Source of the DNA: Bacillota bacterium
GTDB taxonomy: Bacteria > Bacillota > Clostridia > Peptostreptococcales > Anaerovoracaceae
Length of the DNA stretch: 64,000 bases
Reading direction: 5' to 3'
Assembly (NCBI GenBank): GCA_017626845.1
Contig: JAGAHX010000024.1
Span: 1-64,000 of the forward strand
Shown here: one piece after another, positions 9,597 to 33,178 of the stretch
Numbering within the stretch: the first letter of the stretch is position 1
Layout of the letters: each line of letters opens with the position of its first letter
Notes under the pieces: model-generated
What the model was told of the DNA's origin: nothing
Seen by the model: the letters and a program-made list of their open reading frames with translations, nothing else
Databases searched by the model: none
Translations under genes and position numbers: made by a program

Positions 9597-10700
9597 ATGG
9601 AACAAGAGAACAGAGAGAACGGGACCATGCAGGAAAAGCAAGACAGAAAAGGGCCCGGTGCCGGCCGGATCGTCGCGGTGCTGATCGCGCTCGGCCTGGT
9701 CGCTTTCTTCGGATATAGAGTGTATCAGTATCTGAACCGCCCGGAGGCAGAGGTGCCTGTGGAAAGCGTCAACGTCATGGTGGAGCAGGCTCTCCTGGAG
9801 GACATCTCGGAGCAGGCTCCCGTTACCGGCCGTCTGGAACCGGTGGAGGAGGTCGCCATCGTGCCTCTGGCGCAGGGGCAGGTGACCCAGGTCTACGTCA
9901 GCGTAGGAGACAAGGTGTCCAAGGGTCAGACGCTGTTCACCATCGACAGTTCCTCCGTCGCAGCGCAGCTCAATCAGGCAAAAGTCGGCGTAGAGGCGGC
10001 CCAGTCCGCCTACGACCGGATGCAGACCCTCTATAACGAGGGCGCCGTATCCGCACAGGATCTGGAGTCCGTCAAGACCCAGTATCTGTCCGCCAAGGAA
10101 TCCTACAACCAGGTGGCGGAAGTCATCAGCAACTATACCGTAACGTCTCCCATCACAGGCTATGTTACGAGCCTTTCCGTCTCCGCCGGCAGCATCGCGG
10201 GCGGCAACGTGGCAGGCTCCGTCGCCAACATCGATTCTCTCGTGGTCAACACCACCGTCTCCGAGAACATGGCGGCGAAGATCAACGTGGGGGACGAAGT
10301 GGACGTATACATCGCCAGTGTCGATCAGACCTTCAAAGGCACCGTTACGACGTTCTCCCGCATTCCCAGCATAGGCACGCTCACCTATCCGCTCACCATC
10401 ACGATGGAACCGGACGAAGCGCTGTTCGCCGGCATGTTCGCGGAAGTGCACATGACGTCCGAGGCGGCGACCAACACCGTTACGGTAAGCTCCGAAGCGG
10501 TCATCATCAAGGGCGGCCGCAGCGTCGTATGCGTCATTGACCCGGCCACAAACATTTCGGCTTTCCGGGAGGTCTCCGTCGGCATCGATAACGGCACCCG
10601 CGTCCAGATCCTCGAAGGTCTGGAAGAAGGGGAGACCGTCGCTTATTCCGGCCAGCAGTTCGTAACAGAAGGTGAAGCCGTCACCATCGTGGGGGAATAG
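9597..10700 (+). CDS. RND efflux membrane-fusion (periplasmic adaptor) protein
   Basis: The protein has 367 residues from the ATG at 9597, preceded by AAAGGA at 10-bp spacing; an in-frame ATG at 9561 would add 12 residues but sits almost at the predicted transcription start. A membrane anchor at about 24-42 is followed by a lipoyl/barrel-sandwich half (V-Y-V-S-V-G-D-K-V-S-K-G-Q), a helical hairpin (S-A-Y-D-R-M-Q-T-L-Y-N-E-G-A-V-S), the second lipoyl half (T-V-T-S-P-I-T-G-Y-V) and a beta-barrel plus membrane-proximal domain. This is the HlyD/AcrA layout. It pairs with the pump gene 3 bases downstream. No outer-membrane factor is present, as is usual in single-membrane Clostridia. Confidence 0.9.
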   Translation: MEQENRENGTMQEKQDRKGPGAGRIVAVLIALGLVAFFGYRVYQYLNRPEAEVPVESVNVMVEQALLEDISEQAPVTGRLEPVEEVAIVPLAQGQVTQVYVSVGDKVSKGQTLFTIDSSSVAAQLNQAKVGVEAAQSAYDRMQTLYNEGAVSAQDLESVKTQYLSAKESYNQVAEVISNYTVTSPITGYVTSLSVSAGSIAGGNVAGSVANIDSLVVNTTVSENMAAKINVGDEVDVYIASVDQTFKGTVTTFSRIPSIGTLTYPLTITMEPDEALFAGMFAEVHMTSEAATNTVTVSSEAVIIKGGRSVVCVIDPATNISAFREVSVGIDNGTRVQILEGLEEGETVAYSGQQFVTEGEAVTIVGE

Positions 10701-10703: not shown

Positions 10704-13700
10704 ATGAAGTTTTCCCTTGCGAAACTCACGATCCGGCGGCCCGTCTCCACCATCATGGTGGTCCTGATGGTCATCGTTCTGGGCGTATCCGCGTTTATGG
10801 ATATCCCCAAGGACCTGATGCCGGAGATGGAACTGCCCTACGCGCTGGTCATGACGACCTATCCCAACGCCTCCCCGGAAGAAGTGGAGAGCATGGTGAC
10901 GGTCACCGTGGAGCAGGCCCTCGCCCAGGTGGAGAACCTGAGCGACATGATCTCCTATTCCCTTGAAAACACTTCGGTCGTGCTGATCCAGTTCAACTTC
11001 GGTACCGACATGAATTTCGCTTCTCTCGACATGCGGGAGAAGATCTCTCTCATCGAAGATTATCTGCCGGACACCTGCTCGCAGCCCATGGTCATGAAAC
11101 TCAACATGAACGCGCTGCCCACCATGCAGGTGTACGTCTCTGCGGATCTCCCCCTGGAGGAGCTGAACTCCATCGTGGAAGACAACGTCGTTTCCTATTT
11201 CGAGCGCTCTTCCGGCGTTGCCTCCGTATCCGTCAACGGCGGCCTGGAAGAGGAGATCTCCATCGTCTTCAGCCAGGAGAATCTTACGAACTACGGCCTT
11301 ACGCTGCAGACCATCGCCCAGATCCTGGCGGCCGAGAACATCAATCTGCCCTCCGGCAATGTGTCCCGGGGCGACAGCAAGGTGATCGTCCGCACCATGG
11401 GCAAATTTGCGTCAGCGGAGGAACTGGGCAACATCCCCCTGATGACCTCCGACTACAGCAAGGTACGGCTGGCGGACGTCGCCACCATCACCCAGGGCGC
11501 CGGCGAACAGGAATCCATCACCCGGATCAACGGCAAGACGGCTGTGGGCATCATGATCACGAAGCAGTCCGACGCCAATACGGTCAAGGTCTCCCAGGCC
11601 CTGAAGAAGGAATTGGCGCGCGTGCAGGCGAAATACCCCCAGCTGAACTTCATCGTCGGCTACGACGCGGCGGATTTCATCAACGCATCCTTAAGCTCTG
11701 TCGGCCGTTCCGCCATCATCGGCGCAGTCCTGGCCGTGCTTGTCGTATTCATCTTCCTGCGCAATGTGCGCAGCACCATGGTCATCGGCATTTCGATCCC
11801 GCTGTGCATCCTGCTCACGTTCGCGGTCATGAATTTCCGGCACATTACGCTCAACCTCGTTACGCTGTGTTCGCTGGCCATCGCCGTCGGCATGATCGTC
11901 GATAACTCCATCGTCGTGCTGGAGAACATCTATTCCACCCGCATGAAGATGGGAAGCGCCAAAGAAGCGGCGGAGTACGGCACCGGAGAAGTCTTCCTGG
12001 CGATCGTGGCCTCCACGGTCACCACGGTGCTGGTATTCCTGCCCATCGCGCTGACGGACGGTCTCGCCAGCATCATGTTCGGCGATTTCTGCCTTACGAT
12101 CATCATCGCGCTGCTGGCCTCGCTGCTGGTGGCGGTCACCGTCGTGCCCATGCTCTGCAGCAAACTGATGCAGGGTAACATAAGCACAGATTATGTCCGT
12201 GTCGGCCGCGTGCGCTATAAATACAAGCTGCTGCCTCTGTTCAACCGGGGGCTGCAGAATCTCATCGGCTGGTATGAAGGGGTCATCCGCAAGGCGCTGA
12301 AAAAGCGGGGCAGGGTGCTGCTCGTCTGCTTCCTGGTGTTCGGCCTGTCCCTGGGACTTCTCGCCATGGTGGGCACGGAACTGCTGCCCGCCTCCGACGA
12401 AGGCTCCATCAACATCTCCGTGGACGTTCCCTACGGCACCTCCCTTGCCACGACGGACAAACTGATGTCCCAGGTGGAGGATTACATCCTGCAGCTGCCG
12501 GAAGTGCGGCACGTCTCCATGAACACGTCCAGCATCTCGGCCCTGTCTTTGGGCGGCGGCGCCAGTTTTACCGTAGGTCTGTGCAGCCGCACGGAGCGGG
12601 AGCGCACGACGGACGAAGTCGCCAAGGATATCGACGACTTCGCGAAGACCATTACCGGCATCAACGTGAGCGCAGCCTCCAGCTCCTCCATCATGGGCAT
12701 GTTCGGCGATTCCGACATCGCCATCTACGTGATGGGTAAGGACTTGGACAAGCTGGAGGAAGTAGGCCGCGACATCGCAGCCAGAACGTCCCGTCTCGAT
12801 CTCATCGAGAGCGCGGAGCTGGACATTACGGAAGGCAGCCCGGAGATCAAGGTGCTCATCAACCGGGGCACGGCGAGTTTCTACGGCGTTACGGCCTATC
12901 AGCTGGCCAGCGGCCTCTCCGGCGCTTTAAACGGCGTGACCGCCACCAACGTCAGCATCGACGGGGAAGATATCGCGGTCAAGCTCTCCCTCAGCGATTA
13001 CTACGCCGAATCCATCGAGAACATGAAGCAGATCGTCATCAACGGCAATTACGGCACGCCCGTTACCGTCGGACAGATCGCCAGCTTCGAGTTCGACAAT
13101 TCCCCGGCCAACATCACGCGCTACAATCAGAGCCGCTACTTCATCGTGAACGCCGCGATCCAGGGCGACAGCTTATCCGCCGCCTCCGATCAGGTGCAGG
13201 CCATGCTGGACGCCTATCCGTTCCCGGACGGCTATTCCTATGAGATCCAGGGCCTGGCGGACACGATGATGGAGATGTTCGGCAGCCTGTTCAAGGCGCT
13301 CATCGTCGCCATCGCGCTGGTATTCCTGGTGCTGGCGGCCCAGTTCGAATCCATGACCATGGCGTTCATCGTCATGATGGCGATCCCCTTCGCCATGACC
13401 GGCGCCTTTATCGCCATGTTCCTCACCGGCACGAAGATGTCCCTCACATCGCTTCTGGGTCTCGTTCTGCTGGTGGGCACCGTCGTCAACAGCTCCATCC
13501 TGCTGGTGGAGTTCATCAATCAGAATAAACAGGCCATGGGCAGGGAAGACGCGCTGGTCGCTGCCGGAAAGCAGAGACTGCGCCCCATCCTGATGACCAC
13601 CCTCACCACCATCGTCGGCATGATCCCGCTGTCCCTGGGATATGGCGAAGGCGGCGAGATCCTGGCGCCCATGGGTATCTCCATCATCGGCGGTCTGCTT

Positions 13701-13853
13701 ACGTCCACGCTGCTCACCCTCATCGTCATCCCCTGCATGTACAAGCTGGTGGAGGAGAGAAGAGACCGGAGCGCGGAGAGAAGCGCTGCCAGAGCTGCGG
13801 AGATCGCGGCGCTGGAGGCCAAGTGGGCCGAAGAGGATGCGAAAGGAAACTAA
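10704..13853 (+). CDS. RND-family efflux transporter (HAE1/AcrB type)
   Basis: This 1049-residue inner-membrane pump has the expected duplicated plan: a membrane helix at the N-terminus (R-R-P-V-S-T-I-M-V), a large extracytoplasmic loop, a six-helix bundle from about 330, a second loop and a second helix bundle from about 860. The fourth-helix proton-relay motif reads V-G-M-I-V-D400-N-S-I-V-V-L-E-N, so the second Asp of the AcrB pair is Asn here, a change I believe is common in related pumps of Gram-positives. Length is typical. It is coupled to the adaptor upstream. The next gene, an aldolase, begins one base after its stop codon, so the pump is part of a long metabolic operon. Confidence 0.92.
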   Translation: MKFSLAKLTIRRPVSTIMVVLMVIVLGVSAFMDIPKDLMPEMELPYALVMTTYPNASPEEVESMVTVTVEQALAQVENLSDMISYSLENTSVVLIQFNFGTDMNFASLDMREKISLIEDYLPDTCSQPMVMKLNMNALPTMQVYVSADLPLEELNSIVEDNVVSYFERSSGVASVSVNGGLEEEISIVFSQENLTNYGLTLQTIAQILAAENINLPSGNVSRGDSKVIVRTMGKFASAEELGNIPLMTSDYSKVRLADVATITQGAGEQESITRINGKTAVGIMITKQSDANTVKVSQALKKELARVQAKYPQLNFIVGYDAADFINASLSSVGRSAIIGAVLAVLVVFIFLRNVRSTMVIGISIPLCILLTFAVMNFRHITLNLVTLCSLAIAVGMIVDNSIVVLENIYSTRMKMGSAKEAAEYGTGEVFLAIVASTVTTVLVFLPIALTDGLASIMFGDFCLTIIIALLASLLVAVTVVPMLCSKLMQGNISTDYVRVGRVRYKYKLLPLFNRGLQNLIGWYEGVIRKALKKRGRVLLVCFLVFGLSLGLLAMVGTELLPASDEGSINISVDVPYGTSLATTDKLMSQVEDYILQLPEVRHVSMNTSSISALSLGGGASFTVGLCSRTERERTTDEVAKDIDDFAKTITGINVSAASSSSIMGMFGDSDIAIYVMGKDLDKLEEVGRDIAARTSRLDLIESAELDITEGSPEIKVLINRGTASFYGVTAYQLASGLSGALNGVTATNVSIDGEDIAVKLSLSDYYAESIENMKQIVINGNYGTPVTVGQIASFEFDNSPANITRYNQSRYFIVNAAIQGDSLSAASDQVQAMLDAYPFPDGYSYEIQGLADTMMEMFGSLFKALIVAIALVFLVLAAQFESMTMAFIVMMAIPFAMTGAFIAMFLTGTKMSLTSLLGLVLLVGTVVNSSILLVEFINQNKQAMGREDALVAAGKQRLRPILMTTLTTIVGMIPLSLGYGEGGEILAPMGISIIGGLLTSTLLTLIVIPCMYKLVEERRDRSAERSAARAAEIAALEAKWAEEDAKGN

Positions 13854-13854: not shown

Positions 13855-14532
13855 ATGCTTTTAGAAGAAAAACGTAAAGAACTCGTCGCCATCGGCCTGC
13901 GGGCCATCCGGGAAGGGCTTACCACCGGCACCGGGGGAAATTTTTCCGTCTGTGACCGCGCCAGCGGCCTGATGTGCATCACCCCCTCGGGCATTCCCTA
14001 CGTGGACATCAAGCCCGAACAGATCGTCGTGATGGACATCCAGAACGGAAAAATCGTGGACGGAGATGCCGTGCCCTCCAGCGAATGCGACATGCACCGC
14101 ATCTTTTATAAATACCGCACGGATATCGATGCGGTCATCCACACCCATACGACCTACGCTTCCACCTACAGCTGCTTCCGCCGGCCGCTTCCGCCGATCC
14201 ACTATCTCGCGGCTTTCGGCGGCAGTCACGTGAACTGCGCGGAATACGCCACCTACGGCACCGTGGAGCTGGCGCGGAACGCTTTTCAGGCGATGGAAGG
14301 GGTCAATGCGGTGCTTTTGGCCAATCATGGCCTTTTGACCGGCGCAAAGACCCTGAATGAGGCGTATAATATAACTGAGGAACTGGAATTCTGCTGCAAG
14401 ATGGTCTGCACCAGCATGGCCATGGAAGCCAGCGGCTGTAAGCCCGTAGAGCTCCCCCAGGACGAAATGGACCGTATGGTGGAGCGCTTTAAAGGCTACG
14501 GCAAAGTGCACGAGAAGCACGAGGAGATCTGA
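13855..14532 (+). CDS. Class II aldolase/adducin family protein (L-fuculose-phosphate aldolase-like)
   Basis: The protein has 225 residues. The zinc-dependent class II aldolase fold is shown by G-T-G-G-N-F-S near 25-31, the catalytic acid E77 in S-S-E-C-D, the zinc ligands H96 and H98 in I-H-T-H-T, and H158 in N-H-G-L-L. These enzymes split sugar phosphates into DHAP plus an aldehyde, or epimerise ribulose 5-phosphate; the substrate cannot be fixed here. The ATG at 13855 has GAAAGGA at good spacing. The preceding frame stays open into the pump gene, but an upstream start is unsupported. The following dehydrogenase starts directly after its stop, with a sugar kinase next, which argues for one sugar or sugar-acid pathway. 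Confidence 0.87.
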   Translation: MLLEEKRKELVAIGLRAIREGLTTGTGGNFSVCDRASGLMCITPSGIPYVDIKPEQIVVMDIQNGKIVDGDAVPSSECDMHRIFYKYRTDIDAVIHTHTTYASTYSCFRRPLPPIHYLAAFGGSHVNCAEYATYGTVELARNAFQAMEGVNAVLLANHGLLTGAKTLNEAYNITEELEFCCKMVCTSMAMEASGCKPVELPQDEMDRMVERFKGYGKVHEKHEEI

Positions 14533-15561
14533 ATGAGACCCAAAGCCTTCGTCTCTGCGGAGATGGACTACGAGATCGCAAAGCAGCTGGAAGACGTGCT
14601 GGACATTACCTACGACTGGGGCAATGCCGTGCTTACGGCCGACCAGATGAAGGCTGCCTGCGCGGATAAGGATATCATCATTACGAGCTACGATCCCGTT
14701 ACGAAAGACGTGATCGACGCGGCTCCGAACTGCGGCCTCATCGTCTGCACCCGGGCCAATCCCGTCAATGTGGATACTGCCTACGCGAAGGAGAAGGGCA
14801 TCAAGGTAAGCTATGCCGTGGAGCGCAATTCCGACACCACGGCCGAATACACCATGGGGCTCATCCTGGCGGTCACCCGCAAGATCGGCTTCGCCTACCG
14901 CGACCTCTGCGAAGGGAAGTTCACGGCGGGCGACATCGCGGAGCACGGCAGCGAATCCGCCCGGCGCGACGTGACCTGGTCCACCGGCGAGACCAGCCCC
15001 TACACCTACTACAAGGGCTATCAGCTGAAGGGCCACAGCATCGGCATCCTGGGCTGCGGCAGCATCGGCATGCGGGTCGCAAAGCTCTGCGACGCCTTCG
15101 GCATGAAAGTCTACGGCTGCAGCCGTTCCCTGACCAAGGAGAACGCCCCGGCCTACATGGAGGTCTGCGGAAGCCTGTTGGAGATGGCGCCCAAGGTGGA
15201 TATCCTGACGGTCCATCTGAAGGATACGCCACAGACCGAAAACATCGTCAATGCGGAAGTCTTCAAAGCCATGAAGAAGACCGCCTACCTCATCAACGAT
15301 TCCAGAGGCTCCGTCGTGGACGAAGAGGCTCTGATCGAGGCGCTGCGCGAAGGAGAGATCGCCGGCGCCGCCATAGATGTGTTCCCGACGGAACCCATCC
15401 CCCAAAACCACCCGTATTTCGAAATGCGCGACCGGGTGCTGGTGACCCCGCATATCGGCGGAGCCACCTGGGACGCCATTTCCAATCATACTCGGGAATT
15501 CGTCACCGATGTGATGCACTATATCAACGGCGAAGAGTTGGAATATGAGTATCGTAAGTAG
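14533..15561 (+). CDS. D-isomer-specific 2-hydroxyacid dehydrogenase (phosphoglycerate-dehydrogenase-like)
   Basis: The protein has 342 residues. The NAD-binding Rossmann motif G-C-G-S-I-G is at 174-179 in the usual central position. Catalytic Arg258 lies in N-D-S-R-G, Glu287 in P-T-E-P and His307 in T-P-H-I-G-G, the full triad of the family. There is no C-terminal ACT or ASB domain as in serine-pathway SerA, so a catabolic role is more likely than serine synthesis. It sits with zero gap between a class II aldolase and an FGGY kinase, suggesting oxidation or reduction of a 2-hydroxyacid made by, or fed to, the same pathway. Confidence 0.87.
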   Translation: MRPKAFVSAEMDYEIAKQLEDVLDITYDWGNAVLTADQMKAACADKDIIITSYDPVTKDVIDAAPNCGLIVCTRANPVNVDTAYAKEKGIKVSYAVERNSDTTAEYTMGLILAVTRKIGFAYRDLCEGKFTAGDIAEHGSESARRDVTWSTGETSPYTYYKGYQLKGHSIGILGCGSIGMRVAKLCDAFGMKVYGCSRSLTKENAPAYMEVCGSLLEMAPKVDILTVHLKDTPQTENIVNAEVFKAMKKTAYLINDSRGSVVDEEALIEALREGEIAGAAIDVFPTEPIPQNHPYFEMRDRVLVTPHIGGATWDAISNHTREFVTDVMHYINGEELEYEYRK

Positions 15562-15570
15562 GAGGTGTAC

Positions 15571-17040
15571 ATGCAGTATTTTCTGGTAATGGATGCAGGA
15601 ACCACGAGCATCAAGGCAGGTCTGATCTCGATCGACGGTAAATTCGCGGATATTCAGAACGAGCCTGCCCAGGTCCTGATGCCTTTTTCCGGCGCTTCGG
15701 AAATGGACATGAACGACGTATGGGAAGTGGCGAAGAAGGTCATCCTCAAACTGAAGGCGAACAACGAAGCGCTTTGGCCGGAGGTCATCGCGGTCGGTCT
15801 CTCCGCTCAGGGCGACGGCCTGTGGGCGATCGACGACAAGGGCAGACCCGTCCGGAACGCCATGCTCTGGAACGATACCCGGACCGTCCTGGACTACGAA
15901 TCCTTAAACCCGACGCTTCTTGCAAAGAACACGACTGCCATGTTCCCGGGCGCCAACATCGCGGAACTGACGTGGCTGAAGAAGAACGAACCGGAGAACT
16001 ATGCAAAGATCGCCTGGATCTTCCACTGCAAGGACTGGATCAACTTTAAGCTCACCGGCCAGATCGGCACGGACGCTTCCGACGCCTCGACCTCGCTGAT
16101 GAACATCTACACGAAGCAATACGACGAAGAGATCCTGGATTGGCTGGGACTGCCGGAGATGAAGGGCAAGTTCGCCCCGATCTCCACCTCTGACGAGATC
16201 ATCGGCACGATCTATCCGGATGCGGCAGAGGAGCTGGGTCTGCGCGTCGGTACGCCCGTGATCGCGGGCTGCCTGGACGTACTGGCCATCGCCACGGGCT
16301 GCGGCCTGATGAAGGGCGGTCAGAGAGGCTCCATCGTAGGCACGACACTGGCGAACTACGTCGTGATGGACGAGGATACCGCAAGAGGCTGCGTTGCCAC
16401 GAACGGCTCCATCCTGTGCCACACGAAGAAGGATACCTACATCCGTCTGATGGCTGCCACCGCAGGTGCCTCCGCCATGGACTGGATGAGACGGACGATC
16501 CTGGACGGCGAGGATTTCGCGAAGACCGACGAAGAACTGGCGAAGATCCCCATCGGCGCCGACGGCGTCATGAGCACGCCCTATATCAACGGCGAGCGCG
16601 CGCCCTTTAAGCTGAGCTCCGCCTCTGCCGGCTTCTACGGCATCCGGGCGCACCACACCAAGTATCATCTCGCAAAAGCCAGCTTCGAAAGCATCGCCAT
16701 GGCCATGGCGGACTGCTACGCCAACCTGCCGAAGGGCGATGCGGAACTGTATCTGGCGGGCGGCGCAGCCAAGAGCCAGTACATCTGCCAGATGCTCTGC
16801 GACTGCATGGGCGCGGTCACGTACCGGTTCGAAGAGAAGGAACTGGGCCTGATGGGCATCTACCGGCTCATCCTGGATGCGCTGAAGATCTCCCAGTCCG
16901 TTACGGCGAACACCGACAAATTCGAACCGAACATGGAGAACCACGAAAAATACCAGGCTCTGTACAAGGAGTACTGCATCCTGAAGGACAGCATGATGCC
17001 GTTCTGGAAGTCCAGAGCCGCCAAAGAACCGGAAGAATAG
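15571..17040 (+). CDS. FGGY-family carbohydrate kinase
   Basis: The protein has 489 residues from the ATG at 15571, with GGAGG 5 bases upstream; an upstream GTG overlaps that ribosome site and is unlikely. The actin-like ATPase fold has the N-terminal phosphate loop D-A-G-T-T-S-I-K near 8-15, a mid-domain G-L-S-A-Q-G-D-G and W-N-D-T-R region, and the C-terminal FGGY half with Y-I-N-G-E-R-A-P-F and A-G-G-A-A-K-S. Relatives phosphorylate xylulose, fuculose, erythritol, glycerol or autoinducer-2; I cannot choose among these. With the aldolase and dehydrogenase it completes a three-gene carbon module. Confidence 0.9.
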   Translation: MQYFLVMDAGTTSIKAGLISIDGKFADIQNEPAQVLMPFSGASEMDMNDVWEVAKKVILKLKANNEALWPEVIAVGLSAQGDGLWAIDDKGRPVRNAMLWNDTRTVLDYESLNPTLLAKNTTAMFPGANIAELTWLKKNEPENYAKIAWIFHCKDWINFKLTGQIGTDASDASTSLMNIYTKQYDEEILDWLGLPEMKGKFAPISTSDEIIGTIYPDAAEELGLRVGTPVIAGCLDVLAIATGCGLMKGGQRGSIVGTTLANYVVMDEDTARGCVATNGSILCHTKKDTYIRLMAATAGASAMDWMRRTILDGEDFAKTDEELAKIPIGADGVMSTPYINGERAPFKLSSASAGFYGIRAHHTKYHLAKASFESIAMAMADCYANLPKGDAELYLAGGAAKSQYICQMLCDCMGAVTYRFEEKELGLMGIYRLILDALKISQSVTANTDKFEPNMENHEKYQALYKEYCILKDSMMPFWKSRAAKEPEE

Positions 17041-17064: not shown

Positions 17065-18696
17065 ATGTCATTGCTCATCAGAAACGCCAACATCGCGACC
17101 ATGGACAGCGAACAGCCCAGAGCGCAGGCTGCCGTGGTCACGGGCAAGTATTTCGCCTACGTAGGCAGCGAGGAGGGCGCGAAGGAATACATCGCGGCCC
17201 ATAACGACGGCACCTGCGAGGAAGTGGACTGCGGCGGCCAGCTGCTGCTGCCCGGGTTCAACGACTCCCACATGCATTTCCTGCACTACGTAAAGACCCG
17301 CATCCACGTGGACCTCGTGGGATGCACGTCCCTCAAAGAGGTGCTGGACCGCATGAAGGAAGCCTACAAGACCTTCGACAAGAGCGACGGTCTGTGGTTC
17401 GTGGGCGAAGGCTGGAACCAGGATTACTTTACGGACGAGAAGCGGTTCCTCACGAAGGACGACCTGGATACCATCACGACGGACTGGCCCATCATGATCC
17501 AGCGCACCTGCGGACACGTGGGCGTGCTCAACTCCAAGGGTATCGAGATGTTCGACATGAGCCAGGGAGAGGGCCTGAAGTACAAGGAATACGCGGAAGT
17601 CGGCCCGGACGGCAAGCTCAACGGCGTCATTAAGGAGAACCTGTTCGACTACATGAAGACCACGCTGCCCGCACCGTCTCTGGAAAAGCTGATGGACCTG
17701 ATGGAAAAGCACCAGTACGACCTGTTCGAGAAGGGCCTCACCTCCGTGCAGTCCGATGAAGGCAACTACACCCCGGCAGGCCGCTATCACGATCTGCAGA
17801 AGCTGATGAGAGAACGGGCGGAGAAGGGAACCTTCAAGCTCCGTCTGGCTTCCCAGATGCTGTACTTCAACGCGGAGAAACTGAAGTGGGCGTTCTCCGA
17901 AGGCTACGACACGTCCTTCGGCAACGACACCGTCAAGATCTCCTGCACGAAACTGCTGTCCGACGGGTCCCTGGGCGCCAGAACGGCTCTCATGAGGAAG
18001 CCCTACGCGGACGATGCTTCCACCACCGGCCTGGCTCTGTGGACCCAGGAAGGCCTCAACGAGATGGTGGAGATCTCCCAGCGGCAGAACGTGCCCGTGG
18101 CGGTCCACGCCATCGGCGACGGCGCTGTCGAAATGGTGATCAACGCCGTGGAAGCCGCCCAGAAGAAGTATCCCCACGTGCATCCCAGACACACCGTGGT
18201 GCATAGCCAGGTGACCGACAGAGCGCTGCTGCAGCGCATGAAGGATCTGGGCATCTCCGTTATGGTGCAGCCCATCTTCATCGACTACGACATGCACGTC
18301 ATCTACGACCGAGTGGGCAAGGAACTGGCGGAGAGTTCCTACGTTTGGAAGTGGTACAAGGATATGGGCATCCACATGAGCTTCGGCACCGACTGCCCGG
18401 TGGAATCCTTCGAACCGGTGCAGGGCATTTACTGCGCCGTCACGAGACTGGCGAAGAACGGCGACGGACCGTACCTGCCGGAGCAGGCGCTGTCCGTGGA
18501 GGATGCCATCTACGCCTATACGGCGGAGTCCGCTTGGAATACGGGCGACGAAAACAAAAAGGGTAAAGTAAAGGCAGGCATGCTTGCAGACTTCATTACC
18601 ATGGACAGAGACCTTTACACCATCGATCCCAAGGACATTTTGAACGCGAAGGTGACGCGCACCTTCGTGGGAGGAGAAAAGGTTTACGAGAGGTAA
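17065..18696 (+). CDS. YtcJ-type amidohydrolase, paralogue 1 (most divergent)
   Basis: This is a 543-residue metal-dependent hydrolase of the amidohydrolase superfamily, Amidohydro_3/YtcJ branch. Metal ligands are visible: H69 and H71 (D-S-H-M-H), the Lys of T-K-L-L-S-D-G, His in V-H-A-I-G-D, His in V-V-H-S-Q and Asp in F-G-T-D-C-P. The beta-sandwich ends at the C-terminal G-M-L-A-D-F-I-T-M-D. The family includes N-substituted formamide deformylase and other amide or carbamate hydrolases. Its N-terminus and C-terminus differ from the next four paralogues, which look alike. GAGGAGGAAAG gives a strong ribosome site. It is the first of three such enzymes in the main operon. Confidence 0.88.
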   Translation: MSLLIRNANIATMDSEQPRAQAAVVTGKYFAYVGSEEGAKEYIAAHNDGTCEEVDCGGQLLLPGFNDSHMHFLHYVKTRIHVDLVGCTSLKEVLDRMKEAYKTFDKSDGLWFVGEGWNQDYFTDEKRFLTKDDLDTITTDWPIMIQRTCGHVGVLNSKGIEMFDMSQGEGLKYKEYAEVGPDGKLNGVIKENLFDYMKTTLPAPSLEKLMDLMEKHQYDLFEKGLTSVQSDEGNYTPAGRYHDLQKLMRERAEKGTFKLRLASQMLYFNAEKLKWAFSEGYDTSFGNDTVKISCTKLLSDGSLGARTALMRKPYADDASTTGLALWTQEGLNEMVEISQRQNVPVAVHAIGDGAVEMVINAVEAAQKKYPHVHPRHTVVHSQVTDRALLQRMKDLGISVMVQPIFIDYDMHVIYDRVGKELAESSYVWKWYKDMGIHMSFGTDCPVESFEPVQGIYCAVTRLAKNGDGPYLPEQALSVEDAIYAYTAESAWNTGDENKKGKVKAGMLADFITMDRDLYTIDPKDILNAKVTRTFVGGEKVYER

Positions 18697-18699
18697 AAA

Positions 18700-20352
18700 A
18701 TGAGTAAAACAGCATTTCTGAACGGTAAAGTTTACGTAGACGCAGGCCACTTCGAAGAGGCGATCCTGCAGGAGGACGGCATCATCAAGGCGGTGGGCAC
18801 CAACGGAGAGATCCTGGCCCTGTGCGACTGGGAGACCGAAAAGATCGACTGCGGCGGCAAGACCGTCATCCCCGGTCTCAACGATTCCCACATGCACCTG
18901 CTGATGATCGGCGAAGTCCTGAACGAGCCCCCCATCGGAGGTTGCAAGTCCGTCGAGGATATGGTCGAGATCTGCAAGAAGTTTGCGGCGGAAAACCCGG
19001 ATGCGATCCGTCAGGGCATGCACGGCCAGGGCTGGAACCAGGATCTGTTCGAAGAGGGCAAGGTACGCCTGCCCAACCGGGACGACCTGGACCAGATCTC
19101 CACGGAATATCCCATCATGCTGGAAAGAGTGTGCGGCCACACCTGCGCGCTCAACTCCAAGGCGCTGGAGATCCTGGGCATCAACGACGATACGCCCGTG
19201 GACTTCTATGAAGGCGGCACCATCGAACGGGATGAAAATGGCCGGGTCAACGGCTACGTAACCGAAAACGCGGTATATGAAGTGCGCAAAGTCGTTCCCT
19301 CCGCCGACCCCGCCGGCATGAGAAAAGAGCTGCTCTCCGCCATGAAATATGCGACGGAGCACGGCCTTACCTCTGTGCAGTCCAACGACCTGGGCTTTAT
19401 GATCCCCAACTCCGATGAGAACTTCAAGGTCTATAAGGACCTCTACGATGCCAAGGAAGCATCCATCCGTTTCCGCCATCAGGTCTGCTGCCTGCTGGAG
19501 AAGGATCTGGACGAATTCCTGGCCGGGGAATACGCCAACCGGGAAATCTACGACAAGTACAACGGCTGGCTCACCTTAGGACCCCTCAAGATGTTCAAGG
19601 ACGGCTCCATCGGCGCCAGAACGGCTCTGATGAGAGAACCCTACGTGGATGACCCGACCAACTACGGCATCGACTCCCTGGAGCAGGGACTGATGGAGAC
19701 GCTGGTGAAGAAGGCTGCTGCGAACGGCCTGCAGTGCGTCACCCACGTCATCGGCGACCGGGCGGTGGAACTCACCAACCAGGCCTACGAAAAGGTTCTG
19801 GTGGACGGGAAGAACGTTCTGAGAAACTGCCTCATCCACTGCGAACTGACCGGCAAGGATCTGCTGGAATACATCAAGAAGACCGACTCCCTCATCGCTT
19901 ACCAGCCCGTGTTCCTGCAGGGCGACCAGTACACGATGGCGACCCGGTTTAAGCCGGAGCTCATCAAGACTTCGCTGGCCTGCAAGACTGTCATCGACAT
20001 GGGCATCCACGCGTCCTACGGTACGGACAGCCCGGTGGAGGACTCTAACCCCTTCGCCAACATCTACTGCGCCGTCAATCGCAAGGACCTCACCGGAAAG
20101 CCCGAGGAAGGCTGGAATACCCAGGAGTGCGTTACCGTGGAGCAGGCCATCGACGCCTACACCGTGGAAAGCGCCTACATGGAATTCGCGGAAGAGTACA
20201 AGGGCCGCATTAAGCCCGGCTATTACGCGGACCTGGAGATCCTGGACACCGACATCTTTACCTGTGACCCCATGGACATCATCCATATCCTGCCCGAACT
20301 GGTGATGGTAGGCGGAGAGATCGTCCTGAGAGATAAGATCTATCAGAAGTAG
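18700..20352 (+). CDS. YtcJ-type amidohydrolase, paralogue 2
   Basis: The 550-residue protein follows paralogue 1 by 3 bases. All metal ligands are retained: H64 and H66 (D-S-H-M-H), Lys in L-K-M-F-K-D-G-S, His in T-H-V-I-G-D, His in L-I-H-C-E, and Asp in Y-G-T-D-S-P-V-E. The N-terminus (M-S-K-T-A-F-L-N-G-K-V-Y-V) and C-terminus (K-P-G-Y-Y-A-D-L) match paralogues 3-5 closely, pointing to duplication. No signal peptide is seen, so it acts in the cytosol. The substrate is unknown; residues between the conserved blocks differ, which suggests a specificity distinct from the others. Confidence 0.88.
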   Translation: MSKTAFLNGKVYVDAGHFEEAILQEDGIIKAVGTNGEILALCDWETEKIDCGGKTVIPGLNDSHMHLLMIGEVLNEPPIGGCKSVEDMVEICKKFAAENPDAIRQGMHGQGWNQDLFEEGKVRLPNRDDLDQISTEYPIMLERVCGHTCALNSKALEILGINDDTPVDFYEGGTIERDENGRVNGYVTENAVYEVRKVVPSADPAGMRKELLSAMKYATEHGLTSVQSNDLGFMIPNSDENFKVYKDLYDAKEASIRFRHQVCCLLEKDLDEFLAGEYANREIYDKYNGWLTLGPLKMFKDGSIGARTALMREPYVDDPTNYGIDSLEQGLMETLVKKAAANGLQCVTHVIGDRAVELTNQAYEKVLVDGKNVLRNCLIHCELTGKDLLEYIKKTDSLIAYQPVFLQGDQYTMATRFKPELIKTSLACKTVIDMGIHASYGTDSPVEDSNPFANIYCAVNRKDLTGKPEEGWNTQECVTVEQAIDAYTVESAYMEFAEEYKGRIKPGYYADLEILDTDIFTCDPMDIIHILPELVMVGGEIVLRDKIYQK

Positions 20353-20363
20353 GAGGCATTCAA

Positions 20364-21494
20364 ATGCGCAACAAGGAAAAACTTCAGAAGGCAATCGAAC
20401 TGAGACACGAGATCCATCAGAATCCGGACCTCTCCAACCAGGAGAGACCGACCTACGAACGGATCATGAAATTTCTGAAGGAGAATGCGCCGTCCATCGA
20501 GATCGTGGATAAGGGCTACTACGTGTACGCCATTTACCACAGTGAACATCCGGAAAGACCCCGCATCGCCTTCCGTACGGAGGTGGATGCGCTTCCCATC
20601 GAGGACCTGATCGACGAGCCTTACAAGAGCTGTAAGCCCGGCGTGGGTCACAAGTGCGGCCACGACGGCCATGCGGCCACCATGTGCGCGCTGGCCATGG
20701 AACTGGACGAATTCGGCGCAGACCGGGACGTCTACATGATCTTCCAGCCCGCCGAGGAGACCGGCGACGGCGCGCGGCAGTGCACCGACTTCATTACCGA
20801 CAATAACATCGCGGAGATCTACGGCATGCACGGCAGCATCGACGAGGACTACGGCGTGGTGCAGACCAAGGCCGGCCTGATGAACTGCGCATCCGAAGGC
20901 ATGTGCATCGAGTACAAGGGCGTTTCCACCCACGCTTCTCTTCCGGAGCTGGGCAAGAACCCGACCCTGGCGCTGGCGAAGCTGGCACTGTACTGCGACG
21001 AGCTGGAGAAGTCCGAAGGCTATAAGGGCCTCATCATGTCCACCGTCTGCTACATGCGTTCCGGCGATCCCGAAGCCTACGGCGTAGCGGCCCATAAGGG
21101 CTGCTTCCAGGTGACCCTCAGAGGCTCCATCGAAGACGAGATGGTGGATCTGGAGCACAAGGTGGAAGCCAAGGCGAAGGAACTGGCGGAAGAGTACGGC
21201 TTAGGCATCGAGATCTCTTATTCCGACCGTTTCCCCGAGACCGTAAACGATCCGGACTGCGTGGAAAAGATCTTCGAAGCCTGCAGACGCATCGGCGTTC
21301 CTACGGCGGTCCGTCCCGCTGCGGAAAGAGGCTCCGAGGACTTCGGCCACTTTGCAAAGCACACGAAGGGCGCCATGTTCTTCTACTGCTACGGCAAGGA
21401 CAATCCGGACATGCACTCCACTGAATTCAATTTCCACGACGACATCATCGACCGTGTGATCGATATCTACGACGAACTCATCAAGATGTACTAA
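20364..21494 (+). CDS. M20-family amidohydrolase (aminoacylase/N-acyl-amino-acid deacylase type)
   Basis: The 376-residue protein shows the M20D pattern: R-T-E-V-D-A-L-P-I near 71-79, the metal-binding C98-G-H100-D-G-H motif, Q-P-A-E-E-T at 129-133, and a C-terminal ligand in D-M-H-S-T-E-F. Such enzymes remove acyl groups from amino acids or cleave amide-linked conjugates, a chemistry related to that of the flanking amidohydrolases. A small dimerisation domain lies in the middle. It sits between paralogues 2 and 3 with short gaps (11 and 13 bases) and strong ribosome sites, so it is part of the same operon. Confidence 0.88.
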   Translation: MRNKEKLQKAIELRHEIHQNPDLSNQERPTYERIMKFLKENAPSIEIVDKGYYVYAIYHSEHPERPRIAFRTEVDALPIEDLIDEPYKSCKPGVGHKCGHDGHAATMCALAMELDEFGADRDVYMIFQPAEETGDGARQCTDFITDNNIAEIYGMHGSIDEDYGVVQTKAGLMNCASEGMCIEYKGVSTHASLPELGKNPTLALAKLALYCDELEKSEGYKGLIMSTVCYMRSGDPEAYGVAAHKGCFQVTLRGSIEDEMVDLEHKVEAKAKELAEEYGLGIEISYSDRFPETVNDPDCVEKIFEACRRIGVPTAVRPAAERGSEDFGHFAKHTKGAMFFYCYGKDNPDMHSTEFNFHDDIIDRVIDIYDELIKMY

Positions 21495-21507
21495 GAAGGA
21501 GGTACCT

Positions 21508-23109
21508 ATGAGCAAGACAGCATTCTACAACGCGAAAGTTTACGTAGAGAAGGGCGTTTTCGCGGAAGCCATCCTGCAGGAAGACGGATGGATCAAAGCG
21601 GTGGGCACCACCGGCGAGATCCTGTCTCTGGCAGGTTATGACGCAGAGAAGATCGACTGCGGCGGCAAGACCATCGTGCCCGGCTTCAACGACTCCCACA
21701 TGCACATCCTGCAGGTGGGCATGGCCATGACCCAGCTGGATCTCTCCGGCTGCAAGAGCGTGGAGGACATGATCGCGGCAGGACGGCAGTACATCGCCGA
21801 CCATCCCGGCATCCAGGGCATCTTTACCCAGTCCTGGAACGACGACATGTTCGATCCCGACAAGAAGCGTCTGCCCGACAAGCACGACTGCGACGCCATC
21901 TCCACCGAGATCCCCGTATTCCTGGGCCGTATCTGCGGACACTCTGCAGCGGTCAACAGCCTCATCCTGAAGAAGATGGGCCTGGATAAGGATCATCACA
22001 CCATCGAAGGCGGCGAAGTGGTCCTGGGCGAAGACGGCGAACCCAACGGCTATCTGTTCGAAGCGGCCCAGGCAGAAGCCCGTCTGGCAGTGCCTCAGAT
22101 GACGGTGGAAGACGCCAAGATGTACTACGGCAAGGCCATGAAGTACGCCGTGGAACACGGCATGACCACCACCCAGTCCAACGACTACACCACCGTCGCT
22201 CCGAAGCAGATCGTCAAGGCGGCTCTGGAAGACATGTATGCAGACGGCACCGCGCCCATGCGCTACGTGGCCCAGTGCGGCTGCGAGAACATGAAGCAGG
22301 CCGAGGAATTCGTTGCGGAAGACTGGGGCAGAAAGGTGGGCCTGATGGAATACGGCCCCGCCAAGATGTTCAAGGACGGCTCTCTGGGCGCCCGCTCCGC
22401 CATGATGATCCACGGCTATGCGGATGACCCAAACGCAAAGGGCGTCGACCGCATCGCAGACAGCGAACAGATGGCCATGATCCAGTATTTCCAGGATCAC
22501 GGCGTTACGGTCGCGACCCACTGCATCGGCGACGGAGCCATCGACGTGACCCAGAAGATGTACGCCAAGGCTGCCGGCACCGAGAACAAGTACCGCCACA
22601 ACATCATCCATTACCAGATCACGGACATGGATATGGTGAAGTTCACGAGAGAGCACAACATCCTCGTGTCCTACCAGCCTGTGTTCCTGCAGTACGACCT
22701 CCACATCGTGGAGAGCCGCTGCGGACACGACCTGGCCATGCAGTCCTACTGCTTCAAGACTGCGCATGACATGGGCATCCACGCCTCCTACGGCACGGAC
22801 AGCCCCGTGGAAGACTGCAACCCGCTGGCCAACATCTACTGCGCCGTCACCCGCAAGGACTTCAAGGGTCAGCCGCTGGAAGGCTGGAACCCGGCAGAGT
22901 GCGTCGACGTGGAGACCGCTGTGGACGCCTACACCTACGAGAGCGCCTATGCGGAGTTCAAAGAGGGTGTAAAGGGCCGCATCAAGCCCGGATTCTACGC
23001 GGATCTGGTGGTTCTGGATAAGGATATCTTCACCTGCGATCCCATGGAGATCAAGGACGTTCTGCCTGTGCTCACCATGGTGGACGGCAAGATCGTTTAC
23101 AGAAAGTAA
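21508..23109 (+). CDS. YtcJ-type amidohydrolase, paralogue 3
   Basis: The protein has 533 residues with AAGGAGG ahead of the ATG. Ligands are H64/H66, Lys in A-K-M-F-K-D-G-S, His in T-H-C-I-G-D-G, His in I-I-H-Y-Q and Asp in Y-G-T-D-S-P-V-E. The C-terminus (K-P-G-F-Y-A-D-L-V-V-L-D, then M-E-I-K-D-V-L-P-V-L-T) is nearly the same as that of paralogue 4, so these two are probably the most recent duplicates. A hairpin terminator follows directly, ending the main operon that began at the RND adaptor. Confidence 0.88.
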   Translation: MSKTAFYNAKVYVEKGVFAEAILQEDGWIKAVGTTGEILSLAGYDAEKIDCGGKTIVPGFNDSHMHILQVGMAMTQLDLSGCKSVEDMIAAGRQYIADHPGIQGIFTQSWNDDMFDPDKKRLPDKHDCDAISTEIPVFLGRICGHSAAVNSLILKKMGLDKDHHTIEGGEVVLGEDGEPNGYLFEAAQAEARLAVPQMTVEDAKMYYGKAMKYAVEHGMTTTQSNDYTTVAPKQIVKAALEDMYADGTAPMRYVAQCGCENMKQAEEFVAEDWGRKVGLMEYGPAKMFKDGSLGARSAMMIHGYADDPNAKGVDRIADSEQMAMIQYFQDHGVTVATHCIGDGAIDVTQKMYAKAAGTENKYRHNIIHYQITDMDMVKFTREHNILVSYQPVFLQYDLHIVESRCGHDLAMQSYCFKTAHDMGIHASYGTDSPVEDCNPLANIYCAVTRKDFKGQPLEGWNPAECVDVETAVDAYTYESAYAEFKEGVKGRIKPGFYADLVVLDKDIFTCDPMEIKDVLPVLTMVDGKIVYRK

Positions 23110-23124
23110 TATTGTGTAACCATA

Positions 23125-23155
23125 CAGTGCCCGGATCCTTCCGGGCACTGTTTTT
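23125..23155 (+). terminator. Terminator after amidohydrolase paralogue 3
   Basis: CAGTGCCCGG and CCGGGCACTG form a perfect 10-bp stem around a 6-base loop, followed by five T. It separates paralogue 3 from paralogue 4; partial read-through is possible because paralogue 4 has no obvious promoter of its own. Confidence 0.9.
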
Positions 23156-23175
23156 CGAAATAGGGGGGATCCATA

Positions 23176-24804
23176 ATGAGCAAGACCTTATTCTACAACG
23201 CAAAAGTCTACGTCGAAAAAGATACCTTTGCCCAGGCCGTCTATCAGGAAGATGGATGGATCAAAGCCGTCGGCAGCAACGAGGACATCTGCCCGCTGGC
23301 AGCGGAGGACGCGGAAAAGATCGACTGCGAAGGCCGCGTGCTGGTGCCGGGGTTCAACGATTCCCACATGCACATGTGCTTTACCGGCCAGAACATGCTG
23401 GTGCCCGACCTCTCCCAGGTGAAGAACGGCAAGGAGATGGTGGCGGTCATCAAGAAATACGTAGATGAGAACCCGGGGATCAACGGCGTGTTCTCCCAGA
23501 GCTGGGACCAGAACCGCTGGGATGACCCGACCATTCCCACCTGCAAAGACCTGGATACGATCTCCACGGAGATCCCCATCGTGCTCAACCGCTCCTGCGG
23601 TCACATCGGCGTTTCCAACAGCTACGTGCTGAAGAAGCTGGGCATCGATAAGGACCACAAGACCTGGGAAGGCGGCCGCATCGACTGCTTTGAGGACGGC
23701 ACGCCCAACGGCATCATGGCGGAGACGCCGAACTTCGCAGCCCGCATGTCCGTGCCGCCCATCACGAAGGAGCAGGAGAAGAAAGCTCTCGTAATGGCCA
23801 TGGAATACGCGGCGGCCCACGGCATGACCTCCACACAGTCCAACGACATGGGTACGATCATCAAAGATCATGACTATTGCTTCGAGATCGTCGACGAAGT
23901 GTTCGAAGAAGGCAAAGGCCTGGTACGCTACCACTCCCAGACCCTGGTGGATACGCCGGAGGAACTGAAGGAAAAGGTAAAGAACCCCAAGTATTACAAG
24001 GGCACGTTCCACGACGGATGGTTTACCATGGGCCCTTTAAAACTACTGAAGGACGGCTCCTACGGCGGCCATTCGGCCCTGATGAGAAGGGACTACGACG
24101 ACCAGCCCGGCAACCGCGGCGTCGAGAACATTCCCGACGACAAGATGTACGAGATGGTGAAGATCGCCAACGAAAACGGCGTCGGCTGCGCCATCCACTG
24201 CATCGGCGACGGCGCGCTGGAGAAGGTCGTTGACTGCTATGCGAAGGTCCAGGCGGAGCTCTTCGGTGACCCCGCGAACAATCCCTGCCGCAACGCCATC
24301 GTGCACTGCCAGACCATGGATGCTTCGCTGCGCCAGAAGGTGAAGGATGCGAACATCCAGGCCATGTACCAGCCGGTCTTCATCCGCACGGATATGTACG
24401 GTCTGGAGGAGCGCATCGGCAAGGCCATGTGCTACACCTCCAACTCCCCGAAGACCATGCGGGCCATGGGCATCCACGTGTCCTACGGCACCGACTCTCC
24501 CGTAGAGGACTGCAACCCGCTGGTCAACCTTTATGTGGCGGTCACCCGTAAGGATATGGCCGGCAAACCCGAAGGCGGCTGGTATCCCGACGAATGCGAA
24601 GACGTGCAGACCGCCGTGGATGCCTACACCATCGAGAGCGCCTGGGCGCAGGGCATGGAGGACGTGAAAGGACGCATCAAGCCCGGCTTCTATGCCGACC
24701 TTACGGTGCTGGACCACGACATCTTTACCTGCGATCCCATGGAGATCAAGGATACGCTGCCGGTGCTCACCATGTGCGGCGGCAAGTTCACCTACAGAAA
24801 GTAG
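23176..24804 (+). CDS. YtcJ-type amidohydrolase, paralogue 4
   Basis: The protein has 542 residues with GGGGGGA before the ATG. Metal-site residues are H64/H66, Lys in L-K-L-L-K-D-G-S, His in I-H-C-I-G-D-G, His in I-V-H-C-Q and Asp in Y-G-T-D-S-P-V-E. After the metal-site Lys block it reads Y-G-G-H-S-A-L-M where its paralogues read G-A-R-(T/S)-A, a likely change in the active-site wall. The terminator upstream and the palindrome downstream isolate it from its neighbours. Substrate unknown. Confidence 0.88.
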   Translation: MSKTLFYNAKVYVEKDTFAQAVYQEDGWIKAVGSNEDICPLAAEDAEKIDCEGRVLVPGFNDSHMHMCFTGQNMLVPDLSQVKNGKEMVAVIKKYVDENPGINGVFSQSWDQNRWDDPTIPTCKDLDTISTEIPIVLNRSCGHIGVSNSYVLKKLGIDKDHKTWEGGRIDCFEDGTPNGIMAETPNFAARMSVPPITKEQEKKALVMAMEYAAAHGMTSTQSNDMGTIIKDHDYCFEIVDEVFEEGKGLVRYHSQTLVDTPEELKEKVKNPKYYKGTFHDGWFTMGPLKLLKDGSYGGHSALMRRDYDDQPGNRGVENIPDDKMYEMVKIANENGVGCAIHCIGDGALEKVVDCYAKVQAELFGDPANNPCRNAIVHCQTMDASLRQKVKDANIQAMYQPVFIRTDMYGLEERIGKAMCYTSNSPKTMRAMGIHVSYGTDSPVEDCNPLVNLYVAVTRKDMAGKPEGGWYPDECEDVQTAVDAYTIESAWAQGMEDVKGRIKPGFYADLTVLDHDIFTCDPMEIKDTLPVLTMCGGKFTYRK

Positions 24805-24811
24805 TATGACG

Positions 24812-24856
24812 CTTCGACAGGCTCAGCGTCCGTAACGGTCCCTGAGCCTGTCGAAG
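24812..24856. repeat. REP-like palindrome CTTCGACAGGCTCAG
   Basis: CTTCGACAGGCTCAG (24812-24826) and its exact reverse complement (24842-24856) flank a 15-base spacer between paralogues 4 and 5. The same core sequence is, from memory, a widely dispersed palindromic repeat in many bacterial genomes. It lies in the gap, and its right end supplies the only purine-rich stretch (GAAGGGA) ahead of the next start. It could also behave as a weak hairpin in RNA. Confidence 0.8.
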
Positions 24857-24875
24857 GGACGATTTGGTAACATCT

Positions 24876-26510
24876 ATGACGAAGACAGTATTATATAACG
24901 CGAAAGTATACGTGGAAAAGGGCGTCTATGCAGATGCCCTCTACCAGGAGGACGGCATCATCCGGCTGGTGGGCGGCGACAAGCAGGTGCTCACCGCTGT
25001 AGGGCCGGACGCGGAAGCGATCGACTGCGAAGGCCGGACCATAATCCCAGGGTTCAACGACTCCCACATGCATCTGATCAACCTGGGCAAGCAGATGATG
25101 GTGCCGAACCTGGCCAAATGCAAAGACCTGGAAGACATCATCCAGACCTGCCGGAAGTATCTGGCGGAGCATCCCAACTGCAAGGGGCTGCAGTGCCAGG
25201 GCTGGCGGGAGGACGACTGGCCGGAAGGGCACAGAAGGCTGCCGGACAAGCACGATCTGGACCGCATCTCGACCGAGATCCCCGTTGCCATCGTCCGGGG
25301 CTGCGAGCACGCAGGCGCCGTGAATTCCGTGCTGCTGGCGAACATGGGCCTGGATAAGGATCATCATACGATCGAGGGCGGCGAGGTCGTCCTCGGCGAA
25401 GACGGCGGACCCAACGGCTATCTGAAGGAGGCCGCGATCCGCGCCATCTACGGCTACATTCCCAACCTGTCCGACGAGGAACTGGAGGAGGCGATCCTGA
25501 CGGCCATGCGCTACTGCGCCGCCTGGGGCATCACCTCGGTCCAGAGCATGGATCTGGGCACGTATATTCCCAACTGGACGCCCAATTATCGGGTGCTGAA
25601 GGGCATTTACGAGAAAGGCGAGGATCTGGTCCGCTATACGGGTCAGACGTCGTTTGCGGCCGTCGAGGATTTCAAGGCCTACGTGGACGGCTCCTACGGC
25701 GAAACGCCCGACGGCTTCCCGTTCAAGGAAGTGGTCGCGGACGACCGCATGCACATGGGACCGCTAAAGCTGGTACGGGACGGCGCTTTAGGCGCCCGCA
25801 CGGCTATGATGCGTCACGAATACTGCGATGACCCGGGCAACTTCGGCATCGATTCCATGTCGGACGAGTCTTACGAAGCCTATTTGAACGCCGCGGCTGC
25901 GGCGGATCTGCAGGTGGTCACCCACTGCATCGGCGATGAAGCCATCGAGCGCTGCACGAAGAGCTGGAACAAGACCGGACGGAAAGACCTGCGCTTCGGC
26001 GTGGTGCACAATCAGATCACGGATGTGCCGCTGCTGCAGTTCCTGAAAGCATCCGGCTGCGTCGTCGCATACCAGCCCATCTTCCTGGACAGCGACATGC
26101 ACGCGGTGGAGAGCCGCTGCGGCAAGGAACTGAGTTCCACGTCCTACGCGTTTAAGACCGCCCGGGACATGGGGCTGTGCTGTTCCTACGGCACCGACGC
26201 TCCCGTCGTGGATCCGAACCCCTTCGACAACCTGTATTCAGCCATTACCCGCAAAGACCTGAAAGGCTGGCCGGAAGGGGGCTGGAATCCTCAGGAATGC
26301 GTGGACCGGGAGACCGCCGTTGACTGCTATACGGCGGACAGCGCCTATTTTGAGTTCCGGGAGACCGTCAAGGGTCGGCTGAAGCCCGGCTTCTACGCGG
26401 ACCTCACCGTGCTGGACAAGGACATCTTTACCTGCAGCGAAGATGAGATCCGGGCAATCCGCCCCGTGCTCACCATGTGCGCAGGAAAGATCACATACAG
26501 AGAAAAATAG
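24876..26510 (+). CDS. YtcJ-type amidohydrolase, paralogue 5
   Basis: The protein has 544 residues from the ATG at 24876, which aligns with the starts of paralogues 2-4 and places H64/H66 at identical positions; an upstream in-frame TTG at 24864 is less likely. Other ligands are Lys in L-K-L-V-R-D-G-A, His in T-H-C-I-G-D, His in V-V-H-N-Q and Asp in Y-G-T-D-A-P-V-V. It carries an extra segment near residue 270 (G-S-Y-G-E-T-P-D-G-F) not seen in paralogues 3 and 4. The ribosome site is weak because a palindrome fills the gap. A hairpin terminator closes the array. Confidence 0.88.
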   Translation: MTKTVLYNAKVYVEKGVYADALYQEDGIIRLVGGDKQVLTAVGPDAEAIDCEGRTIIPGFNDSHMHLINLGKQMMVPNLAKCKDLEDIIQTCRKYLAEHPNCKGLQCQGWREDDWPEGHRRLPDKHDLDRISTEIPVAIVRGCEHAGAVNSVLLANMGLDKDHHTIEGGEVVLGEDGGPNGYLKEAAIRAIYGYIPNLSDEELEEAILTAMRYCAAWGITSVQSMDLGTYIPNWTPNYRVLKGIYEKGEDLVRYTGQTSFAAVEDFKAYVDGSYGETPDGFPFKEVVADDRMHMGPLKLVRDGALGARTAMMRHEYCDDPGNFGIDSMSDESYEAYLNAAAAADLQVVTHCIGDEAIERCTKSWNKTGRKDLRFGVVHNQITDVPLLQFLKASGCVVAYQPIFLDSDMHAVESRCGKELSSTSYAFKTARDMGLCCSYGTDAPVVDPNPFDNLYSAITRKDLKGWPEGGWNPQECVDRETAVDCYTADSAYFEFRETVKGRLKPGFYADLTVLDKDIFTCSEDEIRAIRPVLTMCAGKITYREK

Positions 26511-26537
26511 TGTTATTAACAAATCCTTTCGACCATA

Positions 26538-26568
26538 AATCCCCAGCAGTTTCGGTGCTGGGGATTTT
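26538..26568 (+). terminator. Terminator closing the amidohydrolase array
   Basis: AATCCCCAGCA and TGCTGGGGATT make a perfect 11-bp stem around a 7-base loop, ending in TTTT. It marks the boundary to the AT-richer accessory region. Confidence 0.9.
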
Positions 26569-33141: not shown

Positions 33142-33178
33142 ATGCCTTCGCTATAGTAAAAAAGAAAAGGAGAGACAA

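Follow-up and report, generated by a model that had tools for sequence, protein, structure and literature searches.

In the 64,000-nucleotide window analysed here, five genes for YtcJ-type amidohydrolases (Amidohydro_3; A1 to A5) and one M20-family gene lie in tandem on the forward strand between positions 17065 and 26510, and this array is the rear part of a larger operon in a genus of ruminant-gut Clostridia. We propose, with a probability of about one half, that the operon is catabolic and that its hydrolases are cytosolic enzymes with di-metal centres, which divide among themselves a range of N-acyl amino acids or conjugates resembling peptides. The families to which these proteins belong have been described before, and we found no account of an amplified mixed YtcJ/M20 operon in the literature (open-access full texts); the suggestion of the first-pass annotation that the operon represents an undescribed pathway is plausible. 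The host genome (2.28 Mb in 82 contigs) carries 13 strong, full-length PF07969/YtcJ-type members, and among 31 genomes sampled the host genus is one of the densest in such genes, with others comparable. The named genomes close to the host genome are MAGs from uncultured Clostridia, namely RGIG7540 (water-buffalo omasum), RGIG1565 (goat abomasum) and RUG11894.

All five YtcJ-type proteins match PF07969 over the whole domain, at 277-328 bits against a Pfam gathering cut-off of 29.7. The M20 protein matches PF01546 at 87.9 bits (cut-off 24.6) and TIGR01891 at 184 bits (cut-off 153.75), and its HKCGHD and EE metal-site motifs are intact. Its nearest solved relative is YxeP (1ysj), which differs from it in pathway context. 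The six metal ligands H, H, K, H, H and D, said by the first-pass annotation to be retained throughout, are invariant in all five paralogues and conserved at 92-100% in a 125-sequence alignment. In A3 numbering these are H64, H66, K286, H338, H368 and D431, and they are all kept in A1-A5, as is H145, an additional catalytic-type histidine (RxC(G/E)H motif). The HxH motif is at 64/66 in A2, A3 and A4 and at 69/71 in A1. In A5 it falls at 68/70 when counted from a TTG at 24864 and at 64/66 from the ATG at 24876, which we prefer as the start; on that start, four paralogues share H64/H66, as had been claimed. The features of the operon and its surroundings are collected in Table 1.

Table 1. Features of the operon and its surroundings, in positions of the window.
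Feature	Position	Strand	Evidence
RND periplasmic adaptor (MFP), probable first operon gene	9561..10700	+	TIGR01730 172 bits, over cut-off; synteny
AcrB-type RND efflux permease	10704..13853	+	PF00873 796 bits
Class II aldolase, L-fuculose-phosphate-aldolase-like; true start 13855, not 13642	13855..14532	+	NF005302 289 bits, over cut-off; PDB 4c24, 6btd
D-2-hydroxyacid dehydrogenase (glyoxylate reductase/PGDH type)	14533..15561	+	PF02826
FGGY carbohydrate kinase, xylulokinase-like	15565..17040	+	PF00370/PF02782; TIGR01312 272 bits, under cut-off 380
A1, YtcJ-type amidohydrolase, 543 aa, separate old lineage; H69 H71 K296 H348 H380 D443, H151	17065..18696	+	Pfam, alignment, tree
A2, YtcJ-type amidohydrolase, 550 aa, first of A2-A5 clade	18700..20352	+	Pfam, alignment, tree
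M20-family amidohydrolase/deacylase, 376 aa	20364..21494	+	PF01546; TIGR01891; PDB YxeP 1ysj
A3, YtcJ-type amidohydrolase, 533 aa	21508..23109	+	Pfam, alignment, AlphaFold2 model
Terminator-like hairpin then T run, A3-A4 gap	23124..23151	+	z -6.0
A4, YtcJ-type amidohydrolase, 542 aa; loop Arg to His (DGSYGGHSA)	23176..24804	+	Pfam, alignment
Pair of inverted REP-like repeats, A4-A5 gap	24810..24858	.	Repeat search
A5, YtcJ-type amidohydrolase, 544-548 aa; CEH replaces CGH	24876..26510	+	Pfam, alignment
Hairpin 3' of A5, probable array transcript end	26537..26567	+	z -4.3
Aconitase/hydratase (aconitase-like, PRK11413), NADP-isocitrate dehydrogenase, CitE, CitF	33104..39401	+	

The closest outside relatives of the A2-A5 clade are single-copy genes, most of which lie directly behind a LAT-type permease. 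This arrangement occurs in 13 genomes: an A2-type gene, single-copy except in one genome with two copies, directly follows a same-strand APC-family permease with gaps of -86 to +86 nt. The permease most resembles amino-acid transporters of the LAT/xc- type. At seven of these permease loci a second YtcJ-type gene comes next, and six of the seven also have a BTAD-type regulator. In the two examples checked (L132 10020-11684 and L150 10141-11700), the second YtcJ-type protein has lost the bridging lysine and has the strand-5 His replaced by Asp, and its metal centre is probably altered. In the host genome, one YtcJ gene (G000:C56) sits with genes for an Opp-type ABC transporter (OppDF-SBP) and another (G000:C53) adjoins an M20-family gene, a pairing that recurs in G156. 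Taken together, the LAT permease, Opp and M20 neighbours of these relatives indicate amino-acid conjugates or peptide-like substrates. Among the substrate classes named in the first-pass annotation, context favours acyl-amino acids, whereas formamides and hydantoins find no contextual support. As a separate observation, genes for a deaminase-type amidohydrolase, a nucleoside phosphorylase, an MtnA-like isomerase and a class II aldolase sit in divergent orientation to an A2-type YtcJ gene at two loci (L144 4395-8885 and L072 4645-9772), a set that resembles a nucleoside/deoxyribose salvage route.

The operon begins upstream of the array, at 13855, or at 9561 when the RND pair is counted, and runs in the order MFP-RND-aldolase-hydroxyacid dehydrogenase-FGGY kinase-A1-A2-M20-A3-A4-A5. 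The aldolase starts 1 nt past the stop of the RND permease, and from there up to A3 the genes are 0-24 nt apart. Gene order is conserved across the genus. We read the complete five-gene array in the window, G002 and G005, and in G001 up to part of A5; contig ends cut it in G003, G004 and G007, where the order of the remaining genes is unchanged. The front part is also found in a sister genus, in which the YtcJ and M20 copies of the tail are mixed differently. The order from MFP to M20 recurs in G007 and, with a Zn-alcohol dehydrogenase between the dehydrogenase and the kinase, in sister-genus G172. The RND permease adjoins the aldolase in G005, G007 and G172; in G001 and G002, both with the array, the RND pair is absent at this position and a divergent DAGK-type gene adjoins the aldolase. 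We considered the upstream DAGK gene as a regulator and rejected it; the gene is divergent and is not a regulator. In the sister genus, the place of A4-A5 is taken by A3-like genes (one or two) together with two additional M20 genes. This difference in YtcJ and M20 copies between the genera marks the tail as a site of amplification of both hydrolase families.

Two properties of the operon count against the reading that we favour. The operon itself encodes no importer and, in most species, carries an RND exporter instead, the permease belonging to the single-copy relatives. In addition, the sugar-type aldolase, kinase and dehydrogenase are unexplained by a plain N-acyl amino acid. An alternative is that the substrates are amines or amino acids amide-linked to a part derived from a sugar, a polyol or a hydroxy acid, and that the freed part is processed by the hydroxyacid dehydrogenase (with the Zn-dehydrogenase in the sister genus), the FGGY kinase and the class II aldolase. 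This would account for the position of these three genes directly upstream of the array, closely spaced and conserved in both genera, and for the Zn-alcohol dehydrogenase that the sister genus adds among them. We nevertheless consider it rather unlikely, because the A2-A5 relatives elsewhere accompany amino-acid transport and not sugar genes, the kinase and aldolase are not tied to a known sugar, and the sugar genes may merely share the transcript.

The first-pass annotation had described five tandem paralogues. This holds for A2-A5, which are 43-50% identical to one another, but not for A1, which is 32-34% identical to them; A2-A5 are true tandem paralogues and A1 is an older, separate lineage. 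The tree (125 sequences, a quick method with SH-aLRT support, some joins weak) places A1 in its own clade, common to the sister genus, and this rules out a single duplication burst for all five. Host-genus A2 joins sister-genus A2, and A3, A4 and A5 form one group (SH-aLRT 89) beside which stand A3-like genes of the sister genus, G067 and G156. Within the genus, most orthologues of A1-A5 share 85-99% identity, G007 giving lower values, and their dN/dS of about 0.03-0.14 shows purifying selection. With no stops, intact ligands and low dN/dS, decay into pseudogenes is ruled out, in line with the argument made in the first-pass annotation.

The array could also serve mainly gene dosage or redundancy, with the paralogues acting on the same substrates. 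The YtcJ family is often copied in the genus, as the 13 members of the host genome illustrate, and tail copy number varies between species. We find this explanation unlikely, because identity between the paralogues is so far below that between their orthologues, and because the stem branches of A4 and A5 are long (0.74 and 0.60) and are followed by little within-genus change. The location of the differences points the same way. A4 has the loop DGSYGGHSA, fixed among the A4 orthologues examined, where the other four have DG(S/A)xGAR(T/S)A, a distinction already drawn in the first-pass annotation. The loop DGSLGARTA also occurs in the Pyrococcus structures 3ICJ and 3IGH, and A4 departs from this motif; the loop residue at A3 position 296 is Arg in A3 and His in A4. 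There are 207 positions that show no variation inside any of the five groups. A4 is the only group to deviate at four of them, and all four are in loops placed as catalytic; A5 is the only one at six, with three in such loops. The catalytic loops were assigned by strand position and hold 93 of the 207 positions. The pockets were compared by alignment, with A3 as the sole modelled paralogue and A1, A2, A4 and A5 aligned to it by sequence. The divergence beside the active site therefore appears to include catalytic-placed loops, which is consistent with split specificity; the numbers are small and are no proof of it.

The AlphaFold2 model of A3 (pLDDT 95.9) has a TIM barrel with a composite beta domain, as in 3IGH and 3ICJ. 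It matches 3IGH with a Z of 49.3 and an rmsd of 3.6 (476 aligned) and 3ICJ with a Z of 47.3. The next structural neighbours, and the nearest characterized ones, are carboxypeptidases and prolidases at Z 33-35, a point in favour of the reading that we prefer; imidazolonepropionases (Z about 33) and deaminases score just below these. Structural similarity inside this superfamily is insufficient to fix the substrate. The imidazolonepropionase match, together with the membership of NfdA in PF07969 (cited in PMC13081902), could be taken to mean that the substrates are cyclic amides, hydantoins or N-formyl compounds, a reading to which we give little credence. NCBIfam hydantoinase, dihydroorotase, allantoinase and deaminase models match A1-A5 over short stretches only, far under their cut-offs, and we rejected a cyclic-amide hydrolase or deaminase identity on this basis. 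Further, among the genes of the operon we identified none for a carbamoylase, a racemase or a formamide pathway.

The array proteins have the fold, the six ligands, the GARTA loop and the HxIGD motif in common with the YtcJ family (COG1574 / PF07969 / cd01300; 3IGH, 3ICJ). The proteins of 3IGH and 3ICJ are uncharacterized and 25-28% identical to the array proteins; the array differs in placing five paralogues in one operon and in that A4 breaks the GAR motif. Bilophila wadsworthia, as here, has many single-domain PF07969 proteins in one gut genome, the short YtcJ paralogues H2-H11 (482-572 aa), five of which show weak bile-salt hydrolysis and whose natural substrates are unknown (PMC13081902). 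The metallo-bile-salt hydrolase BwBSH1 belongs to the superfamily of the array proteins and has their six ligands as well as a conserved auxiliary His, H196, which corresponds to H145 of A3; mutation has shown the six ligands and the auxiliary His to be essential in the PF07969 bile-salt hydrolase (PMC13081902). BwBSH1 has 945 aa, a signal peptide and a C-terminal domain, whereas A1-A5 have 533-550 aa, a single domain and no signal peptide apparent by eye. Of its sulfonate-site residues S194, Q381, N443 and H544, the first three correspond to C, G and I in all five, as placed by offset from the ligands. We rejected a metallo-bile-salt hydrolase identity on length and on these predicted sulfonate-site residues. 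For the same reasons, and because the RND pair is absent at this place in two array-bearing species, it is very improbable that the operon serves to break down and pump out inhibitory amides of host or plant origin (e.g. bile-salt conjugates or plant phenolic amides) with the RND pump as part of a defence, despite a co-directional RND pair that is adjacent in most genus members examined and the sister genus, and despite the weak activity of the Bilophila paralogues.

In anaerobic urate breakdown, UacY (PF07969) and YgeY (M20) each take the N-ureido group off one amino acid (PMC12507026). The parallel with the array is an Amidohydro_3 and an M20 hydrolase in one pathway on N-substituted amino acids; UacY differs in being D-aminoacylase-like, and no urate genes were found in the array operon. 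Because of the precedents of the bile-salt hydrolase and of urate breakdown, the N-acyl amino-acid reading is mechanistically reasonable.

Promoter and terminator scans gave chance-level results, and RNA motif searches found no Rfam match within 8400-27000. A hairpin similar to that in the A3-A4 gap, with a changed stem, is found in G005 and none in G002; A4-A5 expression may be lower where this hairpin is present. The REP-like palindrome of the A4-A5 gap, CTTCGACAGGCTCAG, has 54 copies in the genome compared with 0 for the reversed control pattern.

Outside the operon, a defence-type island follows A5 at 26693-31629, with an AAA/DUF4143 protein (PADLOC PDC-S01), an MmeI-like type IIG restriction enzyme and a DUF3800 protein; GC drops to 43% in 30001-32000, in the region of the island. 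The AAA/DUF4143 and MmeI-like genes are present in G005. No island gene is present in G002, where the homologue of the gene at 31806 lies 9 nt past A5. In the window this gene (31806-32996) is a single 396-aa ORF combining DUF134, Nitro_FeMo-Co and FKBP domains, and the G002 homologue has 281 aa. On the other side, 3959-8495 holds a T2SSE-type ATPase gene and then signalling genes for a GGDEF protein, a response regulator-GGDEF-EAL protein and an Hpt protein. The aconitase-isocitrate dehydrogenase-CitE-CitF module is common to both genera and lies nearer the array in G002 and the sister genus than in the window; an extra M20 gene precedes the aconitase in G002 and G005 and is absent there in the window. 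Aconitase and isocitrate dehydrogenase genes (in one genome with citrate lyase genes) also occur in other genera without nearby YtcJ/M20 genes of the array kind, so a citrate/glutamate link through this module is a weak lead only.

We envisage the following mechanism for the favoured reading, the hydrolysis of N-acyl amino acids or peptide-like conjugates. A YtcJ-type gene would have been duplicated in tandem repeatedly and joined with an M20 deacylase to form the catabolic operon of this ruminant-gut genus. By analogy with the family, each YtcJ protein would be a cytosolic TIM-barrel hydrolase in which a carboxylated lysine bridges two metals and this centre activates water for amide-bond cleavage. 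A1-A5 and the M20 enzyme would together cover a set of related conjugates and free amino acids, which would feed amino-acid catabolism, and the acyl or carbonyl part may pass to the co-encoded dehydrogenase, kinase and aldolase.

More tentatively, and with considerable doubt, we suggest that the genus has a pathway for one chemically defined family of amide conjugates that are plentiful in the ruminant gut. The five YtcJ enzymes and one or more M20 enzymes would each split off their own acyl group or amino acid, and the carbon skeleton so released would enter central metabolism via the kinase and aldolase, possibly also via the aconitase-isocitrate dehydrogenase-citrate lyase module. YtcJ-type proteins are very numerous and, to our knowledge, almost none has a known natural substrate; if true, such a pathway would give natural substrates to a YtcJ clade that has none. 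The report of a relative as a bile-salt hydrolase (PMC13081902) indicates that gut YtcJ members can matter for their hosts. The operon offers five naturally diverged versions and a partner enzyme under one control, with a substrate lead in amino-acid conjugates, and a function assigned here could extend to the whole clade, which is found in many gut Clostridia.
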